DNA from: an uncultured Solirubrobacterales bacterium
Lineage (GTDB): Bacteria; Actinomycetota; Thermoleophilia; Solirubrobacterales; Thermoleophilaceae
Reading direction: 5' to 3'
NCBI GenBank assembly: GCA_902806245.1
Contig: CADCVU010000088.1
Location: forward strand, 1 to 40,022
DNA: 40,022 nucleotides
The notes under the pieces were generated by a model, which worked only from the letters and a program-made list of their open reading frames with translations, was not told the DNA's origin and searched no databases. How positions within the stretch are numbered: position 1 is the stretch's first letter; each line of letters starts with the position of its first letter. Position numbers and translations under genes: made by a program. Shown in pieces: positions 1 through 8,617 of this stretch.

Positions 1-910
1 GATCGGCCCCCTCCACCTCCTCGAGCGCGCGGCGCTTGATCTCGCCGTCGGCGACGATCGTGGCCAGCGCACGCCAGGCGTTGGCCCCGAGCGTGTTGCG
101 CATGGCGAAGATCCAGTGCGGTAGCTGGTGGGCGACGCGCGTGAGGTCGGTCTGCGGAGCGTCGGCGAAGCGCGCGACCAGGCTGCCGGGCTCCGGGTCG
201 CGCAGCTGGCGCTCGAGCCGCCCGTAGAACTCGAAGTAGTCGTCGCCCTCGCTCAGCCCGACAAGCCGGTTGGCCTCGCCCATGAGCTTGTCGAGCAGCG
301 CGGTGATCTCCGTCTCGTCGCGGGCGCGGTCGCCGAAGATTACGCGCAGGGTGATGCGGTCGAACAGCTCCTCCCAGTCCGACCAGGTCAGCCCGTCCGC
401 CAGGTATACGCGCGAGACCTCGTCGGCCACCACGGCTGCGAAGCGGTCGGCGTCCGGGTGCAGCGAGTCCGAGGTGGCGAGCACGGACTCGTTGAAGGCG
501 CGGCGGTCGCGCCACTCCTCGCCGCGCGACATGGTCAGGGCGTCGGGCTGGAAGTGGCACATGCCCTTGCCCTTGGCGCCGGCGTCGGAGGCGTAGACGT
601 TGGCGGAGCGGTCGAGCACCTCGCGGATCGCGTCGGTGCCCCAGAGGAGCACGATCCGCCCGCCGAGCAGACGCGCGCCCTGGCCGGGGTGGGCGGCGCG
701 GATCTCCGAGATCGCCCGGATCGCCCGCGCGTCGGTGTCGAGCCTCGCCATCAGCTTGACCATCCGCTCGCGGGCCGAGAACAGTCCGCGCGCCAGCGTG
801 GGCAGCAGGCCGAGGGCAACGAACCGGAGACTCTCGCCCAGCGAGGCGGCGGGCAGGCCGCCCGGCTGCTCGCCGGCGCGCTGCCGCGGGGGCGCGGAGG
901 CCTGCGTCAC
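1..910 (-). CDS. Cytochrome P450, N-terminal part; runs off the left edge of the window
   Basis: Minus-strand reading from GTG at 910 is open to the window edge. It contains P450-like text (..FQPDALTMSRGEEWRDRRAFNESVLA.., ..LTRVAHQLPHWIFAMRNTLGANAWRALATIVADGEIKRRALEEVEGAD). Start overlaps the stop of the upstream gene (GTGA, 907-910). Confidence 0.85.
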   Translation of the reverse strand, partial: MTQASAPPRQRAGEQPGGLPAASLGESLRFVALGLLPTLARGLFSARERMVKLMARLDTDARAIRAISEIRAAHPGQGARLLGGRIVLLWGTDAIREVLDRSANVYASDAGAKGKGMCHFQPDALTMSRGEEWRDRRAFNESVLATSDSLHPDADRFAAVVADEVSRVYLADGLTWSDWEELFDRITLRVIFGDRARDETEITALLDKLMGEANRLVGLSEGDDYFEFYGRLERQLRDPEPGSLVARFADAPQTDLTRVAHQLPHWIFAMRNTLGANAWRALATIVADGEIKRRALEEVEGAD

Positions 911-2841
911 GCGCGGCCCGCGTAGGCGGAGGCGTCCGAGTTGATCGCGCTCAGCGCTCGGCGCGTCCCGGCGATCCGCCTGCCGACCCTGCCGTTCCCG
1001 TCTCCGTCAGCCGATACCTGATGCCAAGGCAGAAAGGCGTTCGGCATCCCCTCGAGCGCCGGGCTGAGATCGGGGTGATGGCGGAGGATGACGTCCTTCA
1101 TCTTCGTGTTGTTGACCCAGTCGATGCCGGTCTGCGTGTAGACCTCGGGCGTGAAGTCGGTGGTGAAGAAGCGGTCGCTCTTGAGGCGCCGCGAGGCCAT
1201 CAGGATGAACACCCGAAACGCCGTGTCCGAGAACCCGAAGCCCGGCGGCAGCGGCTCGGCGTACATGCCGATCTGGAGGTCGACCTTGTCGATGTCGTTG
1301 TTGTAGACGCGGCGGATCTGCTCGGCCCACCGCTTGTTGTGGGTCAGCTCGTCGAACGAGCGCACGCGCGGCATCCGCATCTCCTCGCGGAAGTCGTTGT
1401 AGCGCAGGACTCCGCGCTCGCGGTCGCGCAGGATGTCCATGGTCGCGAGGTCCATGAGCTCGCCGTCGATGCGCCGGTGGCGCTGGAGCGCGCGCGGATA
1501 GTTGTGCAGGGTGATCGCGCCGGGATTCGCGATCCCCAGCGAGTACATGAGGTCGGTGTTGGTGTGGGCGTCCATGAACCCGCGGGTGCTCGCGCCCTGG
1601 AGCTCGACGAACTCGTGCTGGGCCAGCGCCTGGCCGTTCTCCGCGCTGTAGAGCGTCCAGTCGTCGGGGATCAGCGGGTGCATGCGGTAGACCGAGACGA
1701 ACTCCTCGGTGAGCTGAAAGCGCGCGCCGTGGTGCTCCTGCGGCGAGCCCATGATCCCGCTGAAGATCTCGGAGTCGCCGAAGCGCCCGAGGCGGTTCTT
1801 GATCGTCTGGCCGAGCACGCCCGACCAGTTCGCGTTCATGGCCGCCCACAACGCCGAGTTGTTCACGATCCCGGGGGTCCACTCGACGGTGTGGATCTTC
1901 GCCATCAGCGCGGAGTTGATGAGCCACGCGGTGTCGAACAGGCGCTGGTCGGTCCAGCGCGGGTTCTCCTTCTTGAGCACGTCGCAGATCGCGTTGTGCT
2001 CCTTGGTGAACAGCGAGGTCAGAACCGAGAGTCCGAACCACCAGTTCTCGTTGAAGCCGGCCATGTCGACGCCCGGCTGGTCGGGGTCCTCGGGCAGCCG
2101 GCCCTGCGCGTCGATCTTGAGCTTGCCGTCCTCGAAGGAGCGGACCTTGTTCTGATCGGCCTGGCTCGAGCCGTAGAGCTGCGAGCCGTCCCACCAGTGG
2201 GTCTCGGTGTTGCCGAAGTCGATCGAGTCGTCCAAGCGGCCGTTCGCCCTGCCGTCGGACCCGCTCGAGCCGTTCGGGCTCCCCTGCCCGCCGGGCACCG
2301 ACACGGTTCGGCGCACGTACATCTGGTCGTCGGGCCAGTCGTCGCCCGCCGGGAGCGGGACCTCGAAGACCTCGTCGGGCGTGCCGCGGCCGTGGAAGAA
2401 CCAGTTGTGGTTCTCGAACTGGATCCACGCCGCAGCGAGGACGTTGAGCGTGGTGGCCGGCTTGAAGTGGTCGCGGGTCATGAGCTCGAGCGAGACCGTG
2501 CGCGGGTTGGGGTCGTAGAGCCGCGGGGGGCGCTCCGGCTTGATCCGCCTCGGGTTGATGTTGCGCGAGAACGCCGAGCTCTGCGAGCCCATGTCGGGAT
2601 CGTCGAGGTCGTTCCACTTTCCGTCGGGCCGCCTGGCGGTGCGCGCCTCGGGCGGCGGCTCCTCCGTGCCGTGCTCCTGGATCTGCTTCTCGGAGTCGAA
2701 GAGGTTCTTGTCGCGCAGGTCGAGCCGCAGCGAGAGCAGGTTGAGCAGGCTGACGGGAAACGGCAGCTGGTGCCACTGGCGGCGCCGGTTGATCGGCGCG
2801 AACACGGTGTGCAGGGCGCGGTTGGCAAGCGATCTGCTCAT
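907..2841 (-). CDS. Animal-type heme peroxidase, alpha-dioxygenase (PIOX)/cyclooxygenase superfamily
   Basis: ORF from ATG 2841 (MSRSLANRALHTVFAPINRRRQWHQ..). Motifs AKIHTVEWTPGI (distal His region) and LTEEFVSVYRMHPLIPD (catalytic Tyr/proximal His region, compare YRMH of alpha-DOX and YHWHPLLPD of COX). Length about 644 aa fits alpha-DOX. Confidence 0.88.
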   Translation of the reverse strand: MSRSLANRALHTVFAPINRRRQWHQLPFPVSLLNLLSLRLDLRDKNLFDSEKQIQEHGTEEPPPEARTARRPDGKWNDLDDPDMGSQSSAFSRNINPRRIKPERPPRLYDPNPRTVSLELMTRDHFKPATTLNVLAAAWIQFENHNWFFHGRGTPDEVFEVPLPAGDDWPDDQMYVRRTVSVPGGQGSPNGSSGSDGRANGRLDDSIDFGNTETHWWDGSQLYGSSQADQNKVRSFEDGKLKIDAQGRLPEDPDQPGVDMAGFNENWWFGLSVLTSLFTKEHNAICDVLKKENPRWTDQRLFDTAWLINSALMAKIHTVEWTPGIVNNSALWAAMNANWSGVLGQTIKNRLGRFGDSEIFSGIMGSPQEHHGARFQLTEEFVSVYRMHPLIPDDWTLYSAENGQALAQHEFVELQGASTRGFMDAHTNTDLMYSLGIANPGAITLHNYPRALQRHRRIDGELMDLATMDILRDRERGVLRYNDFREEMRMPRVRSFDELTHNKRWAEQIRRVYNNDIDKVDLQIGMYAEPLPPGFGFSDTAFRVFILMASRRLKSDRFFTTDFTPEVYTQTGIDWVNNTKMKDVILRHHPDLSPALEGMPNAFLPWHQVSADGDGNGRVGRRIAGTRRALSAINSDASAYAGRA

Positions 2842-4147: not shown

Positions 4148-5175
4148 GGCGACTCGGTCAGCCGCAGGAAGAGCTCCTCGAGACCTGGCCGGCTCGGCGT
4201 GAGCGCGTGCAGTCCGACCCCGTGGGCCGCGAGCTCGAGCGTCAGCTCGGCCACCGCCTCACGCTCGGCCCGCAGCGTGAGCCCGCCCGGCCCGGTGTCG
4301 GCATCGGAGACGCCAGCGTGGGCTCGGGCGAGCCCGAGAGCGACCTCGTCGTCGGTGGTCTCGAGCCGGTAGCCGCCGGCGGCGGCCGCGAGCAGATCGA
4401 TGAGCATGCCCTCGTGGACGACCGCGCCGGCGCGCACGATGGCCACGCGGTTGCAGAGCTCCTCGACCTCGGTCAGGAGGTGGCTCGAGAGCAGGACCGT
4501 CATGCCCTCGTCGGCCAGGCGCCGCACGAGAGCGCGCATGTCGCGCATTCCGCCGGGGTCGAGGCCGGTGGCCGGCTCGTCGAGGAGGAGGAGCCTGGGG
4601 CGTCGGATGAGCGCGGCGGCGATCCCGAGCCGCTGCTTCATGCCGTGGGAGTACCCGCCCACGCGGTGGCGGCGGCGCGCGGTGAGGCCGACGGTCTCGA
4701 GCGCCTCCTCGATGCGCGTCGCCGCCCCGCCGCCGTCGTAGGCGGCGAGTAGCTCGAGGTTCTTCTGGCCCGTGAGGTACGGATAGAAGCGCGGCGCCTC
4801 CACGAACCCGGCGACGCCCTCGAGGGCCTGGATGCCGTCGGCGATCGGGTCGCGCCCGAACAGCCGCACCGATCCCTCCGACGGTCGGATGAGGCCGAGG
4901 AGCATGCGCAGCGTCGTGGTCTTCCCGGCGCCGTTGGGGCCGAGGAAGCCGTAGACGTCGCCCGCTTCCACGGTCAGGTCCACGTGGTCGACGGCGATGA
5001 TCTCGCCGTAGCGCTTGACCAGTCCGCGGGCCTCGATCGGGAGCGCGCGGTCGGTCGCCTTCGAGGGGTGGGAAGCCGGGCGGGAGGCGGTCGCCGGCGC
5101 GCCGCGGCGAGCCGCCGCCGCGCCGGGCGCGGCGGGTGCCCCAGGGTGCGGGGCGGTCGACATCCCTTCGGTCAC
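4144..5175 (-). CDS. ABC transporter ATP-binding protein (ABC-2 exporter type)
   Basis: Walker A GPNGAGKTTTLRMLLGL, signature-like YSHGMKQRLGIAAALI, Walker B LLLLDEPATGLDP. Confidence 0.95.
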   Translation of the reverse strand: MTEGMSTAPHPGAPAAPGAAAARRGAPATASRPASHPSKATDRALPIEARGLVKRYGEIIAVDHVDLTVEAGDVYGFLGPNGAGKTTTLRMLLGLIRPSEGSVRLFGRDPIADGIQALEGVAGFVEAPRFYPYLTGQKNLELLAAYDGGGAATRIEEALETVGLTARRRHRVGGYSHGMKQRLGIAAALIRRPRLLLLDEPATGLDPGGMRDMRALVRRLADEGMTVLLSSHLLTEVEELCNRVAIVRAGAVVHEGMLIDLLAAAAGGYRLETTDDEVALGLARAHAGVSDADTGPGGLTLRAEREAVAELTLELAAHGVGLHALTPSRPGLEELFLRLTESP

Positions 5176-6383
5176 CGCAGCTCGCGGGCCGCGGCCTCCG
5201 CCGTCGCCGGCGGCACCGACCCGGCCACCGCGTAGGCCACGCCGTCGCGCTCGAAGCGGATCAGCGTTCCGAGCGCCGTCGCGAGCTTCGTGCCCTTGGC
5301 GCCGTCGACGGAAATCTCGGGCAGCTCGCGCAGCACATCCTCGCGTCCGCCGCCGCGCTCGTCGCGGGGCTCTGACCGTTGCGCGGGCTGCTCGATCACG
5401 GCGATGGCCGCGAGCCCGCGACCGTAGATCACCAGGGCGCCGGGGCGGCCTTCGTGGGCGATCAGCCGCACCTCGCGGCGGGGCAGGCTTGCAAGCTTCT
5501 CGGGGGCGGCGAGTCCGAAGGGCAGGGCTTTGCGGACGGCCGCGAGGCCGGTGACGCGCTTTCGATCCTTCTTGCCTCTGCTCCGCTCGTCGCCCTCCTC
5601 ACCTGGAGAGTCGACGCGGACCACGCGGGTCCCGACGGGCGGCTCGACGGCCACATCGGAGAGCGGCACGGCGTCGTAGGAGACATCCGTGACCGAGAGA
5701 TCGAGCACCGGTTCGGTCTCGCCCTTCGCGTAGACCGCGGCTCGGAGGGGCACGCCGCGAACGGCGTCCCAGGCGATCTCGGCCGCGCCCAGGAGGCCTC
5801 CGTCGTTGCGAGGGGCCACGCGCACCGAGTAGGCCGGGCGCCCGGCCCGGGACTCGGGGCGCGCTCCGGAGAGCCGGGCCCGCTCGGAGAGGCGCGCGAG
5901 CTTGCGCTCGATCTCGGCCAGCGTGGGGGGCCGGCGGCGATCCTCGCCACGCCGGCTCTCACTCTTCTCCCCCTTGGGCATCTCGGCGCGGTAGACCGTC
6001 TTCGAGCTCGCGTCGTAGAGAGTCAGGGCGCGGCCGTCGGAAGCCACCTGGGCATCGCCGCGGCGGGACTGGAGCTCGAGGCGCATGCGCCCGTCGGGAC
6101 GCGCCCAGAGACGGCCCGAGGCCCCGGCGAGGAGGGGCGGTGCCTCTCCCTCGGGCAGGGCGCCGGCCGGCAGCAACCGGTTGGCGAACTCGATCCGAGC
6201 ACTGACCCCGGCCGGGGGCGGCGCGGTGACGGCGCGCTGGACGGCCTCGGCCAGCGGACGCGGAGGCGGCGTCTCCCCTCCGCCGAGCGCGGCGGAGGCG
6301 ACCGCGGCGGTGACCGCCAGGCCGGCGAGAGCAACCACGAGGATGGTGAGACGAGCGCGGGACAAGGATCGTATGCGGCTCAT
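5172..6383 (-). CDS. LolA/RseB-like secreted or membrane-anchored protein in operon with the ABC exporter
   Basis: ATG at 6383 followed by a signal/TM segment (RLTILVVALAGLAVTAAVASAA) and a LolA-like body (ASGRLWARPDGRMRLELQSRRGDAQVASDGRALTLYDASSKTVYRAEMP). GTGA overlap with the ATPase. Confidence 0.65.
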   Translation of the reverse strand: MSRIRSLSRARLTILVVALAGLAVTAAVASAALGGGETPPPRPLAEAVQRAVTAPPPAGVSARIEFANRLLPAGALPEGEAPPLLAGASGRLWARPDGRMRLELQSRRGDAQVASDGRALTLYDASSKTVYRAEMPKGEKSESRRGEDRRRPPTLAEIERKLARLSERARLSGARPESRAGRPAYSVRVAPRNDGGLLGAAEIAWDAVRGVPLRAAVYAKGETEPVLDLSVTDVSYDAVPLSDVAVEPPVGTRVVRVDSPGEEGDERSRGKKDRKRVTGLAAVRKALPFGLAAPEKLASLPRREVRLIAHEGRPGALVIYGRGLAAIAVIEQPAQRSEPRDERGGGREDVLRELPEISVDGAKGTKLATALGTLIRFERDGVAYAVAGSVPPATAEAAARELR

Positions 6384-6424
6384 ATGGCCTCTCCGGATCG
6401 GATTGGTGGCTGGATCGCTCAAAG

Positions 6425-6497
6425 TAGGGGCGACGGGGATCGAACCCGTGATCTCCGGCTTGAAAGGCCGGCGTCCTAACCGCTGGACCACGCCCCC
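6425..6497 (-). tRNA. tRNA-Glu (anticodon TTC)
   Basis: Minus strand GGGGGCGTGGTCCAGCGGTTAGGACGCCGGCCTTTCAAGCCGGAGATCACGGGTTCGATCCCCGTCGCCCCTA; anticodon loop CTTTCAA, T-arm GGTTCGATCC; CCA not encoded. Confidence 0.93.
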
Positions 6498-6575
6498 GGG
6501 AGCATCGATTGTAGGTGGACGCCGGGTTCGCCCCGACACGGTTCCTCCGCCGCCGCGGCGGGTAGGCTGGCGGGC

Positions 6576-6815
6576 ATGGCTCAAGAAGATCCCAACCCCA
6601 AGGTCGACACCGACCCAGCGCCCGCCGAGGGCTCGAACGCCGAGAAGGACCCGGGCGACTGGGTGACCGGCGAGGAGCCGATGACCGGCGCGCAGGCGTC
6701 CTACCTGAAGACCCTCGCCGAGCAGGCGGGCGAGTCCTTCGATCCCAACCTCAGCAAGGCCGCTGCATCGCAGCGCATCGACGAGCTCCAGCAGAAGACG
6801 GGACGCGGCCGCTGA
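6576..6815 (+). CDS. DUF3072-like small protein
   Basis: 79 aa; DWVTGEEPMTGAQASYLKTLAEQAGESFDPNLSKAAASQRIDELQ matches the remembered DUF3072 pattern. Confidence 0.8.
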   Translation: MAQEDPNPKVDTDPAPAEGSNAEKDPGDWVTGEEPMTGAQASYLKTLAEQAGESFDPNLSKAAASQRIDELQQKTGRGR

Positions 6816-6821
6816 GGCGAC

Positions 6822-6840
6822 TCGCCGCCTCCGGCGGCGA
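6822..6840 (+). terminator. Hairpin downstream of the DUF3072 gene (terminator candidate)
   Basis: TCGCCGCC-TCC-GGCGGCGA, 8-bp perfect stem, 3-nt loop; no U tract. Confidence 0.35.
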
Positions 6841-6858
6841 CCTATGATCGCTCGCCCG

Positions 6859-6932
6859 GCCCCCGTAGCTCAGTTGGTCAGAGCGGCGGACTTTTAATCC
6901 GCGCGGCGAAGGTTCGAGTCCTTCCGGGGGCA
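6859..6932 (+). tRNA. tRNA-Lys (anticodon TTT)
   Basis: GCCCCCGTAGCTCAGTTGGTCAGAGCGGCGGACTTTTAATCCGCGCGGCGAAGGTTCGAGTCCTTCCGGGGGCA; cloverleaf arms pair. Confidence 0.95.
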
Positions 6933-6970
6933 TCTGGCCGCGCGGGCGCGACGCCGGCCGGCCCGCCCGC

Positions 6971-8617
6971 TCAGTGGCGGAAGTGTCGCCGCTTGGTCAG
7001 CACCATGGCCACGCCGGCGCGGTCGCAGGCCTCGATGACCTCGGTGTCGCGCCGCGAGCCGCCCGGCTGGATGATGCCGCGCACCCCGGCCTCGATCGCC
7101 ACCTCGGGTCCGTCGGCGAACGGGAAGAAGGCATCGGATGCCATGACGCCGCCGGACAGCGCCGTGCCGCCCTTCTCGACGGCGAGGCGCACAGAGTCGA
7201 CGCGGCTCATCTGCCCGGCGCCGATGCCTACCGTGGCCATGTCCTTGGCCAGGACGATGGCGTTCGAGCGCACGTGCTTGCAGACCTTCCAGGCGAACAG
7301 GAGGTCGTCCCACTCCTGCTCGCTCGGCTCGCGCTCCGTGACCACCTCCATGTCCTCGCGCGACTCCGGCGACTCGTCGCGGTCCTGCACGAGCAGGCCG
7401 CCGCGCACGCGCGCGAACTCGTGGTCGCGATCGGGCCAGCCGCGCCGCTCGGCGTCGCGCATGATGCGCAGGTTCTCCTTCTGCTGGAGGAGCTCGCAGG
7501 CGTCGTCGTCGTAGTCGGGCGCGAAGACCATCTCCACGAACATCTCGCTCAACTGCTCGGCCAGAGCGTTGTCGACGGGACGGTTGACGCAGACGACGCC
7601 GCCGAAGGCACTCGTCGGGTCGGTGGCGAGCGCGCGCTCGAAGGCCTCGCGCGGGCTGTCGGCCACGGCGCACCCGCACGGGTTGTTGTGCTTGACGATC
7701 GCCGCCGCGGGGCCCTCGAACTCGCCGATCAGCCGGCGCACGGCATCGAGGTCGAGCAGGTTGTTGAACGAGAGCTCGCGGCCGTGCAGCTTCGAGACCA
7801 TCGAGAGCAGGTGCGTGCGGGCGCCGGCCTGGGCGTAGTAGGCCGCGCGCTGGTGCGGATTCTCGCCGTAGGAGAGGTCGAGGATCTTCTCGTAGGCGCG
7901 CACGTAGAGGGCCGGGAACTCCTGCTCGCGCTCGGAGAACCAGCGCGCCACCGCGGCGTCGTAGCGCGCGGTCAGGGAGAAGGCCTCGAGGGCGAGCGCC
8001 TGCCGCGTCTGGGCCGAGATCCGGCAGCCGAGGGTGTGCAGCTCCTCGAGCACCGCGTCGTAGCTCTCGGGCTTGACCACCGAGGCCACGTAGGCGTGGT
8101 TCTTGGCGGCGGCGCGGATCATGGTCGGGCCGCCGATGTCGATGTCCTCGATGACCTCGGCGTCTCTGGCGCCGGGGCGGTTCGCGGTGTTCTCGAAGGG
8201 ATAGAGGTTCACGCACACGAGGTCGATCGGCTCGATCTCGTGCTCGTCGAGCGTGGCGGAGTGGGCGGGATCGGAGCGCACCGCGAGCAGTCCCGCGTGG
8301 ATGCGCGGATTGAGGGTCTTGACGCGGCCGTCGAGCACCTCGGGAAAGCCGGTCAGGTCTTCCACCGCGCGGCTCTCGATCCCGGCGTCGGCGAGCTTTC
8401 CGGCGGTGCCGCCGGTGGAGATGAGCTCGACGCCGAGATCGGCCAGCCCGCGGGCGAAGTCGATGACCCCGCGCTTGTCGGAGACGCTGATGAGCGCGCG
8501 GCGCACCCGCACCTCGGCGGGCGGGTTCAGCGGCGGCGCGGTCGCGGGAGCGCAGCCGGCGGGCTCGCGCTCCGCGCCGTTGGTCGCGTTGCCCGTGCCC
8601 TGATCAGTGCTCGCCAT
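6971..8617 (-). CDS. purH: Bifunctional AICAR formyltransferase / IMP cyclohydrolase
   Basis: VRRALISVSDKRGVIDFARGLADLGVELISTGGTAGKL.., ..YGENPHQRAAYYA.., ..VKHNNPCGCA... ATG at 8617 or in-frame GTG at 8626. Confidence 0.97.
   Translation of the reverse strand: MASTDQGTGNATNGAEREPAGCAPATAPPLNPPAEVRVRRALISVSDKRGVIDFARGLADLGVELISTGGTAGKLADAGIESRAVEDLTGFPEVLDGRVKTLNPRIHAGLLAVRSDPAHSATLDEHEIEPIDLVCVNLYPFENTANRPGARDAEVIEDIDIGGPTMIRAAAKNHAYVASVVKPESYDAVLEELHTLGCRISAQTRQALALEAFSLTARYDAAVARWFSEREQEFPALYVRAYEKILDLSYGENPHQRAAYYAQAGARTHLLSMVSKLHGRELSFNNLLDLDAVRRLIGEFEGPAAAIVKHNNPCGCAVADSPREAFERALATDPTSAFGGVVCVNRPVDNALAEQLSEMFVEMVFAPDYDDDACELLQQKENLRIMRDAERRGWPDRDHEFARVRGGLLVQDRDESPESREDMEVVTEREPSEQEWDDLLFAWKVCKHVRSNAIVLAKDMATVGIGAGQMSRVDSVRLAVEKGGTALSGGVMASDAFFPFADGPEVAIEAGVRGIIQPGGSRRDTEVIEACDRAGVAMVLTKRRHFRH

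Follow-up and report, generated by a model that had tools for sequence, protein, structure and literature searches.

The window analysed here, a 40,022-nt stretch of DNA, is contig CADCVU010000088.1 (C88) of an uncultured Solirubrobacterales bacterium, whose assembly comprises 2.3 Mb in 229 contigs. At one end, a gene for a predicted alpha-dioxygenase (alpha-DOX) is followed by the first part of a cytochrome P450 gene (Table 1), and Thermoleophilaceae MAGs are among the nearest relatives for this locus.

Table 1. Positions of the genes, the overlap and the diagnostic residues at the alpha-DOX/P450 locus of the window
Feature	Position	Strand	Remarks
Predicted alpha-dioxygenase gene	910-2841; stop codon 907-909	(-)	644 aa, ATG at 2841, intact; PF03098, 342 bits, E = 9.5e-102
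Distal heme His145 (rice H157), in WIQFENHNW	2407-2409	(-)	Alignment to rice alpha-DOX
AKIHTVEWT: His317 and Thr322, carboxylate-binding (rice H311, T316)	1876-1902	(-)	Alignment to rice alpha-DOX
LTEEFVSVYRMHPLIPD: Phe381, catalytic Tyr385, proximal His388 (rice F375, Y379, H382)	1663-1713	(-)	Alignment to rice alpha-DOX
Arg552, carboxylate-binding (rice R559)	1186-1188	(-)	Alignment to rice alpha-DOX
GTGA overlap of dioxygenase stop TGA (907-909) and P450 start GTG (908-910)	907-910	(-)	4 shared bases
P450 gene, first 303 aa	2-910	(-)	GTG start 908-910; cut by contig edge
C-helix WRDRR (W133, R137; WxxxR motif)	500-514	(-)	W130, R133, R134 invariant in alignment A1
I-helix HWIFAMRNT: Asn272 (Asp in most orthologues), Thr273 kept	92-118	(-)	Alignment of orthologues

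The initial annotation had described a GTGA shared by the peroxidase stop and the P450 start, and the bases on the minus strand agree. This overlap is not a product of chance, because a -4 overlap recurs in three related loci (L002, L004 and L005) and the start/stop spacing in the remaining adjacent loci is near zero (-7 to +22 nt). The dioxygenase and the P450 would thus be translationally coupled at this site. Third-position GC was 0.96 in both genes. No other match above 31% identity to the missing end of the P450 was found elsewhere in the same assembly. Further along the window, a 470-aa ORF with no Pfam match (5172-6584, minus strand) overlaps a tRNA-Glu gene (6424-6497) with its 5' end, and its true start therefore probably lies further in.

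The An_peroxidase domain (PF03098) of the dioxygenase was closer to alpha-DOX than to cyclooxygenase (COX). Its top solved relatives were the alpha-DOXs of rice (380 bits) and Arabidopsis (359 bits), against 62 bits for COX-2; the match to the rice enzyme (4kvj) spanned residues 17-606, nearly end to end, whereas that to COX-2 was confined to a short stretch. The active-site residues, whose roles have been described in rice numbering (PMC8720084), were conserved throughout: the heme ligands His157 and His382 (H145 and H388 in the dioxygenase), the catalytic Tyr379 with its flanking Phe375 and Phe552 (Y385, F381 and F545), and the carboxylate-binding His311, Thr316 and Arg559 (H317, T322 and R552). 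Nearly all of 53 aligned bacterial alpha-DOX sequences contained the same functional residues. In that alignment, the distal heme His was replaced by Arg in five proteins and by Asn in one. The dioxygenase is likewise homologous over its full length to the plant enzymes (rice 4kvj/4kvl, Arabidopsis 4hhr) and to the cyanobacterial CsDOX, CalDOX and LepDOX (PMC8720084), and shares every catalytic, heme- and carboxylate-binding residue with them; in the 4kvl chain, Phe stands in the place of the catalytic Tyr (rice Y379). A difference was found in the substrate channel, where M325 of rice alpha-DOX corresponds to Leu in the dioxygenase of the window. Two peptides had initially been read as the distal-His and Tyr-x-x-His regions of this enzyme family. 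Both exist, and the Tyr-x-x-His assignment was right (YRMH, with Tyr385 catalytic and His388 proximal), but AKIHTVEWT is the carboxylate-binding segment and not the distal-His region, the distal ligand being H145.

Judged by these residues and its best matches, the dioxygenase is an alpha-dioxygenase, so that its expected product would be a 2-hydroperoxy acid and not the 8- or 10-hydroperoxide of linoleate. The alpha-DOXs characterised so far are those of plants and three cyanobacteria; they form a 2(R)-hydroperoxide, which is described as decaying on its own to the Cn-1 aldehyde (PMC9305512). By analogy, the enzyme of the window would form the 2(R)-hydroperoxide of a free fatty acid, which would decay in the same way.

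The 303-aa P450 fragment of the window alone gave no Pfam, NCBIfam or PDB match. Close relatives (L002-L004) encode full-length proteins (439-456 aa) with 63-65% identity to it. PF00067 was matched by 45 of 46 alignment members, but not by the incomplete window copy on its own. The heme-thiolate Cys and the Arg of the ExxR motif were present in 45/45 orthologues, and the Glu of that motif in 40/45 (Asp in 5/45); in the window, this region lies beyond the contig end. Structure prediction, as suggested in the initial annotation, was applied to the P450 of L004, whose AF2 model (pLDDT 91) matched P450 folds. CYP184A1 of Streptomyces avermitilis (7wzm, with oleic acid) was the best PDB match by both sequence profile and fold, at about 21% identity and a TM score of 0.67-0.73. 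On the evidence of its full-length orthologues, the partner protein is a true P450.

The association of the two genes extended well beyond the window. Sixty-two related loci were retrieved from genome contigs with the window's own protein as query, and the pairing rate therefore holds for the relatives of that protein; 59 loci had enough flank to judge P450 presence. A P450 was located near alpha-DOX in 56 of the 59 (46 directly downstream, five upstream, three divergent and two one gene away), spanning Thermoleophilia, Mycobacteriales and Propionibacteriales. Since so many loci are paired in several gene orders, the pairing survives rearrangement. The linked P450s grouped in one clade (support 98/93), which excluded eight sister proteins and a further 14 P450s taken from three genomes. 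On the dioxygenase tree, the linked label required three changes compared with 15.7 when shuffled, and the alpha-DOX and P450 distance matrices were correlated (Mantel r 0.80), to which shared species history contributes. The concern raised in the initial annotation, that orthologues of the P450 might be unlinked in relatives, was thus resolved in favour of linkage. An independent survey covered 397 genomes from the phylum; alpha-DOX was present in 20, mostly outside the linked clade and with no P450 of the linked family in the flanks read. Many alpha-DOXs occur without a P450 nearby, so that alpha-DOX does not need one, a point against the two-gene module proposed below. In Amycolatopsis saalfeldensis (L033, about 5860-7908), alpha-DOX lies in two open pieces next to an intact P450, reflecting either a pseudogene or a sequence error.

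These results provide good support for the dioxygenase and P450 genes as a functional unit. Because the pair is kept in over 50 related genomes, the P450 probably handles the alpha-DOX product. Alternatively, the two heme enzymes might simply be co-regulated, for example in response to lipid or oxidative stress, and act on different molecules. Related P450s of Rhizobium and Paracoccus, which are encoded near ferritin-like, sigma-factor or Mn-catalase genes with no alpha-DOX beside them, would be compatible with such adjacency without joint chemistry, but the persistence of the pairing through changes in gene order across three bacterial groups makes this quite unlikely.

The initial annotation had proposed a two-gene bacterial analogue of the fungal Ppo/linoleate diol synthases. 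The conserved dioxygenase/P450 unit that this implied was recovered, whereas the link to Ppo was not, given the residues and best matches of the dioxygenase. Ppo and other DOX-CYP fusions (PMC13049297) likewise team a PF03098-type dioxygenase with a P450, and the Tyr-x-x-His motif is present in the window. However, Ppo is a single fusion protein, whereas the window has two genes with a stop and a start between them, and the dioxygenase has the active site of an alpha-DOX, including the carboxylate-binding trio (H311/T316/R559 in rice). Alpha-DOX also outscored COX by more than 300 bits, and the P450s formed a clade of their own. A direct bacterial counterpart, with a linoleate 8- or 10-dioxygenase and a P450 hydroperoxide isomerase, is thus scarcely credible, and the parallel with Ppo appears to be one of layout, not one shown by descent.

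Hydroperoxide-only P450s generally lack the acid-alcohol pair of helix I. The P450 of the window, with Asn272-Thr273, departs from the acid-alcohol pattern of O2-activating monooxygenase P450s. Most linked P450s retain it, with Asp as the acid in 39/46 and Thr as the alcohol in 42/46; besides the window, the exceptions were Gly-Thr in L002 and L033 and Ala-Asn in the mycobacterial-type L011, L014, L035 and L051. By comparison, an Asp-Thr type pair was kept in 14/14 control P450s (other P450s of three genomes). In the sister P450 groups, which include rhizobial and Streptomyces proteins, the helix-I segment was one residue shorter and mostly had no Thr, as in CYP152. Ordinary O2 activation therefore seems to be lost often across the wider P450 clade, though only in a minority of the alpha-DOX partners. 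Several hydroperoxide-only P450s without the pair have been described (PMC13049297). With most members keeping the pair, hydroperoxide chemistry by the linked P450s is no more than possible.

The CYP152 fatty-acid peroxygenases (1izo) share the fatty-acid/peroxide context with the linked P450s, and the shortened I-helix segment with their sister groups. Membership of the linked P450s in CYP152 was nevertheless rejected, as only 107 C-terminal columns aligned to the family profile (E = 4.4e-8), the helix-I Arg-Pro was missing and the two were separate on trees. The comparison with known hydroperoxide P450s covered CYP152, to which no link was found. Among more distant relatives, P450s on Rhizobium and Paracoccus plasmids (L181-L184; about 30% identity) lack the acid-alcohol pair; it is these that have ferritin-like, sigma-factor or Mn-catalase genes as neighbours. 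They are possibly stress-linked peroxide P450s; as alpha-DOX partners they were rejected, since no alpha-DOX lies beside these genes.

The gene neighbourhoods offered further context. On a plasmid of Streptomyces sp. NBC_00069 and in genome G443 (L177, L124), alpha-DOX is the fifth gene in a row that starts with a TPP decarboxylase, followed by an FAD-linked oxidase, a P450 and a lipase-like alpha/beta hydrolase, and that ends after alpha-DOX with a small ORF. This six-gene operon, whose P450 is a distant cousin of that in the window, looks like a full alpha-oxidation route. Its order would fit a sequence from lipid release through the 2-hydroperoxide, 2-hydroxy acid and 2-oxo acid to the Cn-1 aldehyde, with tentative assignment of the individual steps. 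In L003, an aldehyde dehydrogenase gene overlaps the P450 stop by ATGA, and its product scores as succinic semialdehyde dehydrogenase. Many mycobacterial loci have an acyl-CoA oxidase gene after the pair, some also a short-chain dehydrogenase/reductase (SDR) gene. On its readable side, the pair in the window is flanked by none of these additional genes, nor by one for the 215-aa protein described below.

Two conserved families with no Pfam match were also observed at the mycobacterial loci. The gene for a protein of about 215 aa immediately precedes alpha-DOX in most of 38 loci (L009-L063; e.g., L011:848-1492, plus strand); the protein is conserved, its AF2 model had a pLDDT of 80, its fold matches were all weak (Tcur_1030, 4mve, was the best, followed by lipocalins), and it had no match in the window's genome. 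Members of the second family, about 365 aa long, are encoded after the acyl-CoA oxidase of mycobacterial cassettes (L011:6625-7767, plus strand, and eight other loci).

These neighbourhoods bear on the main alternative, in which the P450 is an ordinary monooxygenase, dependent on O2 and a redox partner, that works beside or after alpha-DOX in catabolic alpha-oxidation. It might oxidise the Cn-1 aldehyde or hydroxylate the chain, and the aldehyde dehydrogenase, SDR and acyl-CoA oxidase would pass the products on to beta-oxidation. The genes after the pair in many mycobacterial loci and in L003 are in line with this reading, as are the Asp-Thr pair retained in most linked P450s and the nearest solved folds (CYP184A1 with oleic acid, CYP97 and CYP102). 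However, the acid is replaced in the window and several orthologues while all control P450s keep the pair, the L003 enzyme scores for a different aldehyde, and no ferredoxin recurs in the cassettes; near the alpha-DOX/P450 pairs, no convincing ferredoxin ORF was found, and the pattern matches look like wrong-frame noise. The monooxygenase explanation is a serious possibility, albeit one that we lean against.

Taken together, we give about an even chance to a two-gene fatty-acid alpha-oxidation module in which alpha-DOX makes a 2-hydroperoxy acid and the P450 acts on that product. In the first step, which complete active-site conservation suggests, alpha-DOX would use its Tyr385 radical and O2 to convert a free fatty acid to the 2(R)-hydroperoxide. 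In the second, the co-translated P450 would act on this product or a derivative, most likely on the short-lived 2-hydroperoxide ahead of its decay to the Cn-1 aldehyde. It would reduce or rearrange the hydroperoxide or use it as an oxidant, yielding a 2-hydroxy, 2-oxo or doubly oxidised acid. The module context is favoured by the hydrolase, FAD-linked oxidase and TPP decarboxylase in NBC_00069 and G443 and by the aldehyde dehydrogenase in L003. The more specific proposal, that the linked P450s are a previously undescribed clade devoted to the alpha-DOX product and converting 2-hydroperoxy acids, in an independently built, Ppo-analogous tandem based on alpha-DOX, is advanced tentatively, at slightly short of even confidence. 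Hydroperoxide chemistry is favoured by the lack of a convincing ferredoxin nearby, the loss of the acid or alcohol in several orthologues including that of the window, and the sister groups without the pair. The missing-ferredoxin argument is weakened because actinobacterial P450s often have their redox partners encoded elsewhere in the genome. Moreover, the many linked P450s that keep the acid and the alcohol argue against a hydroperoxide-only reading, and the lack of the heme-binding half of the window's P450 in the assembly counts against the main reading.

A bacterial alpha-DOX/P450 pair was not found reported in the open-licence literature, and earlier reports elsewhere are possible; the pairing is apparently unreported. 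In the window, the alpha-DOX gene overlaps a P450 gene, whereas a P450 partner is not mentioned for the known alpha-DOXs in two publications on these enzymes (PMC8720084; PMC9305512). If our reading is correct, the spread of this P450 together with alpha-DOX across actinobacteria, including mycobacteria, would mean that bacteria control the fate of the hydroperoxide. It would also provide a second, independent dioxygenase-P450 tandem to set beside fungal Ppo and the COX cascade, and the pair could be a possible tool for producing 2-hydroxy acids or shortened aldehydes.
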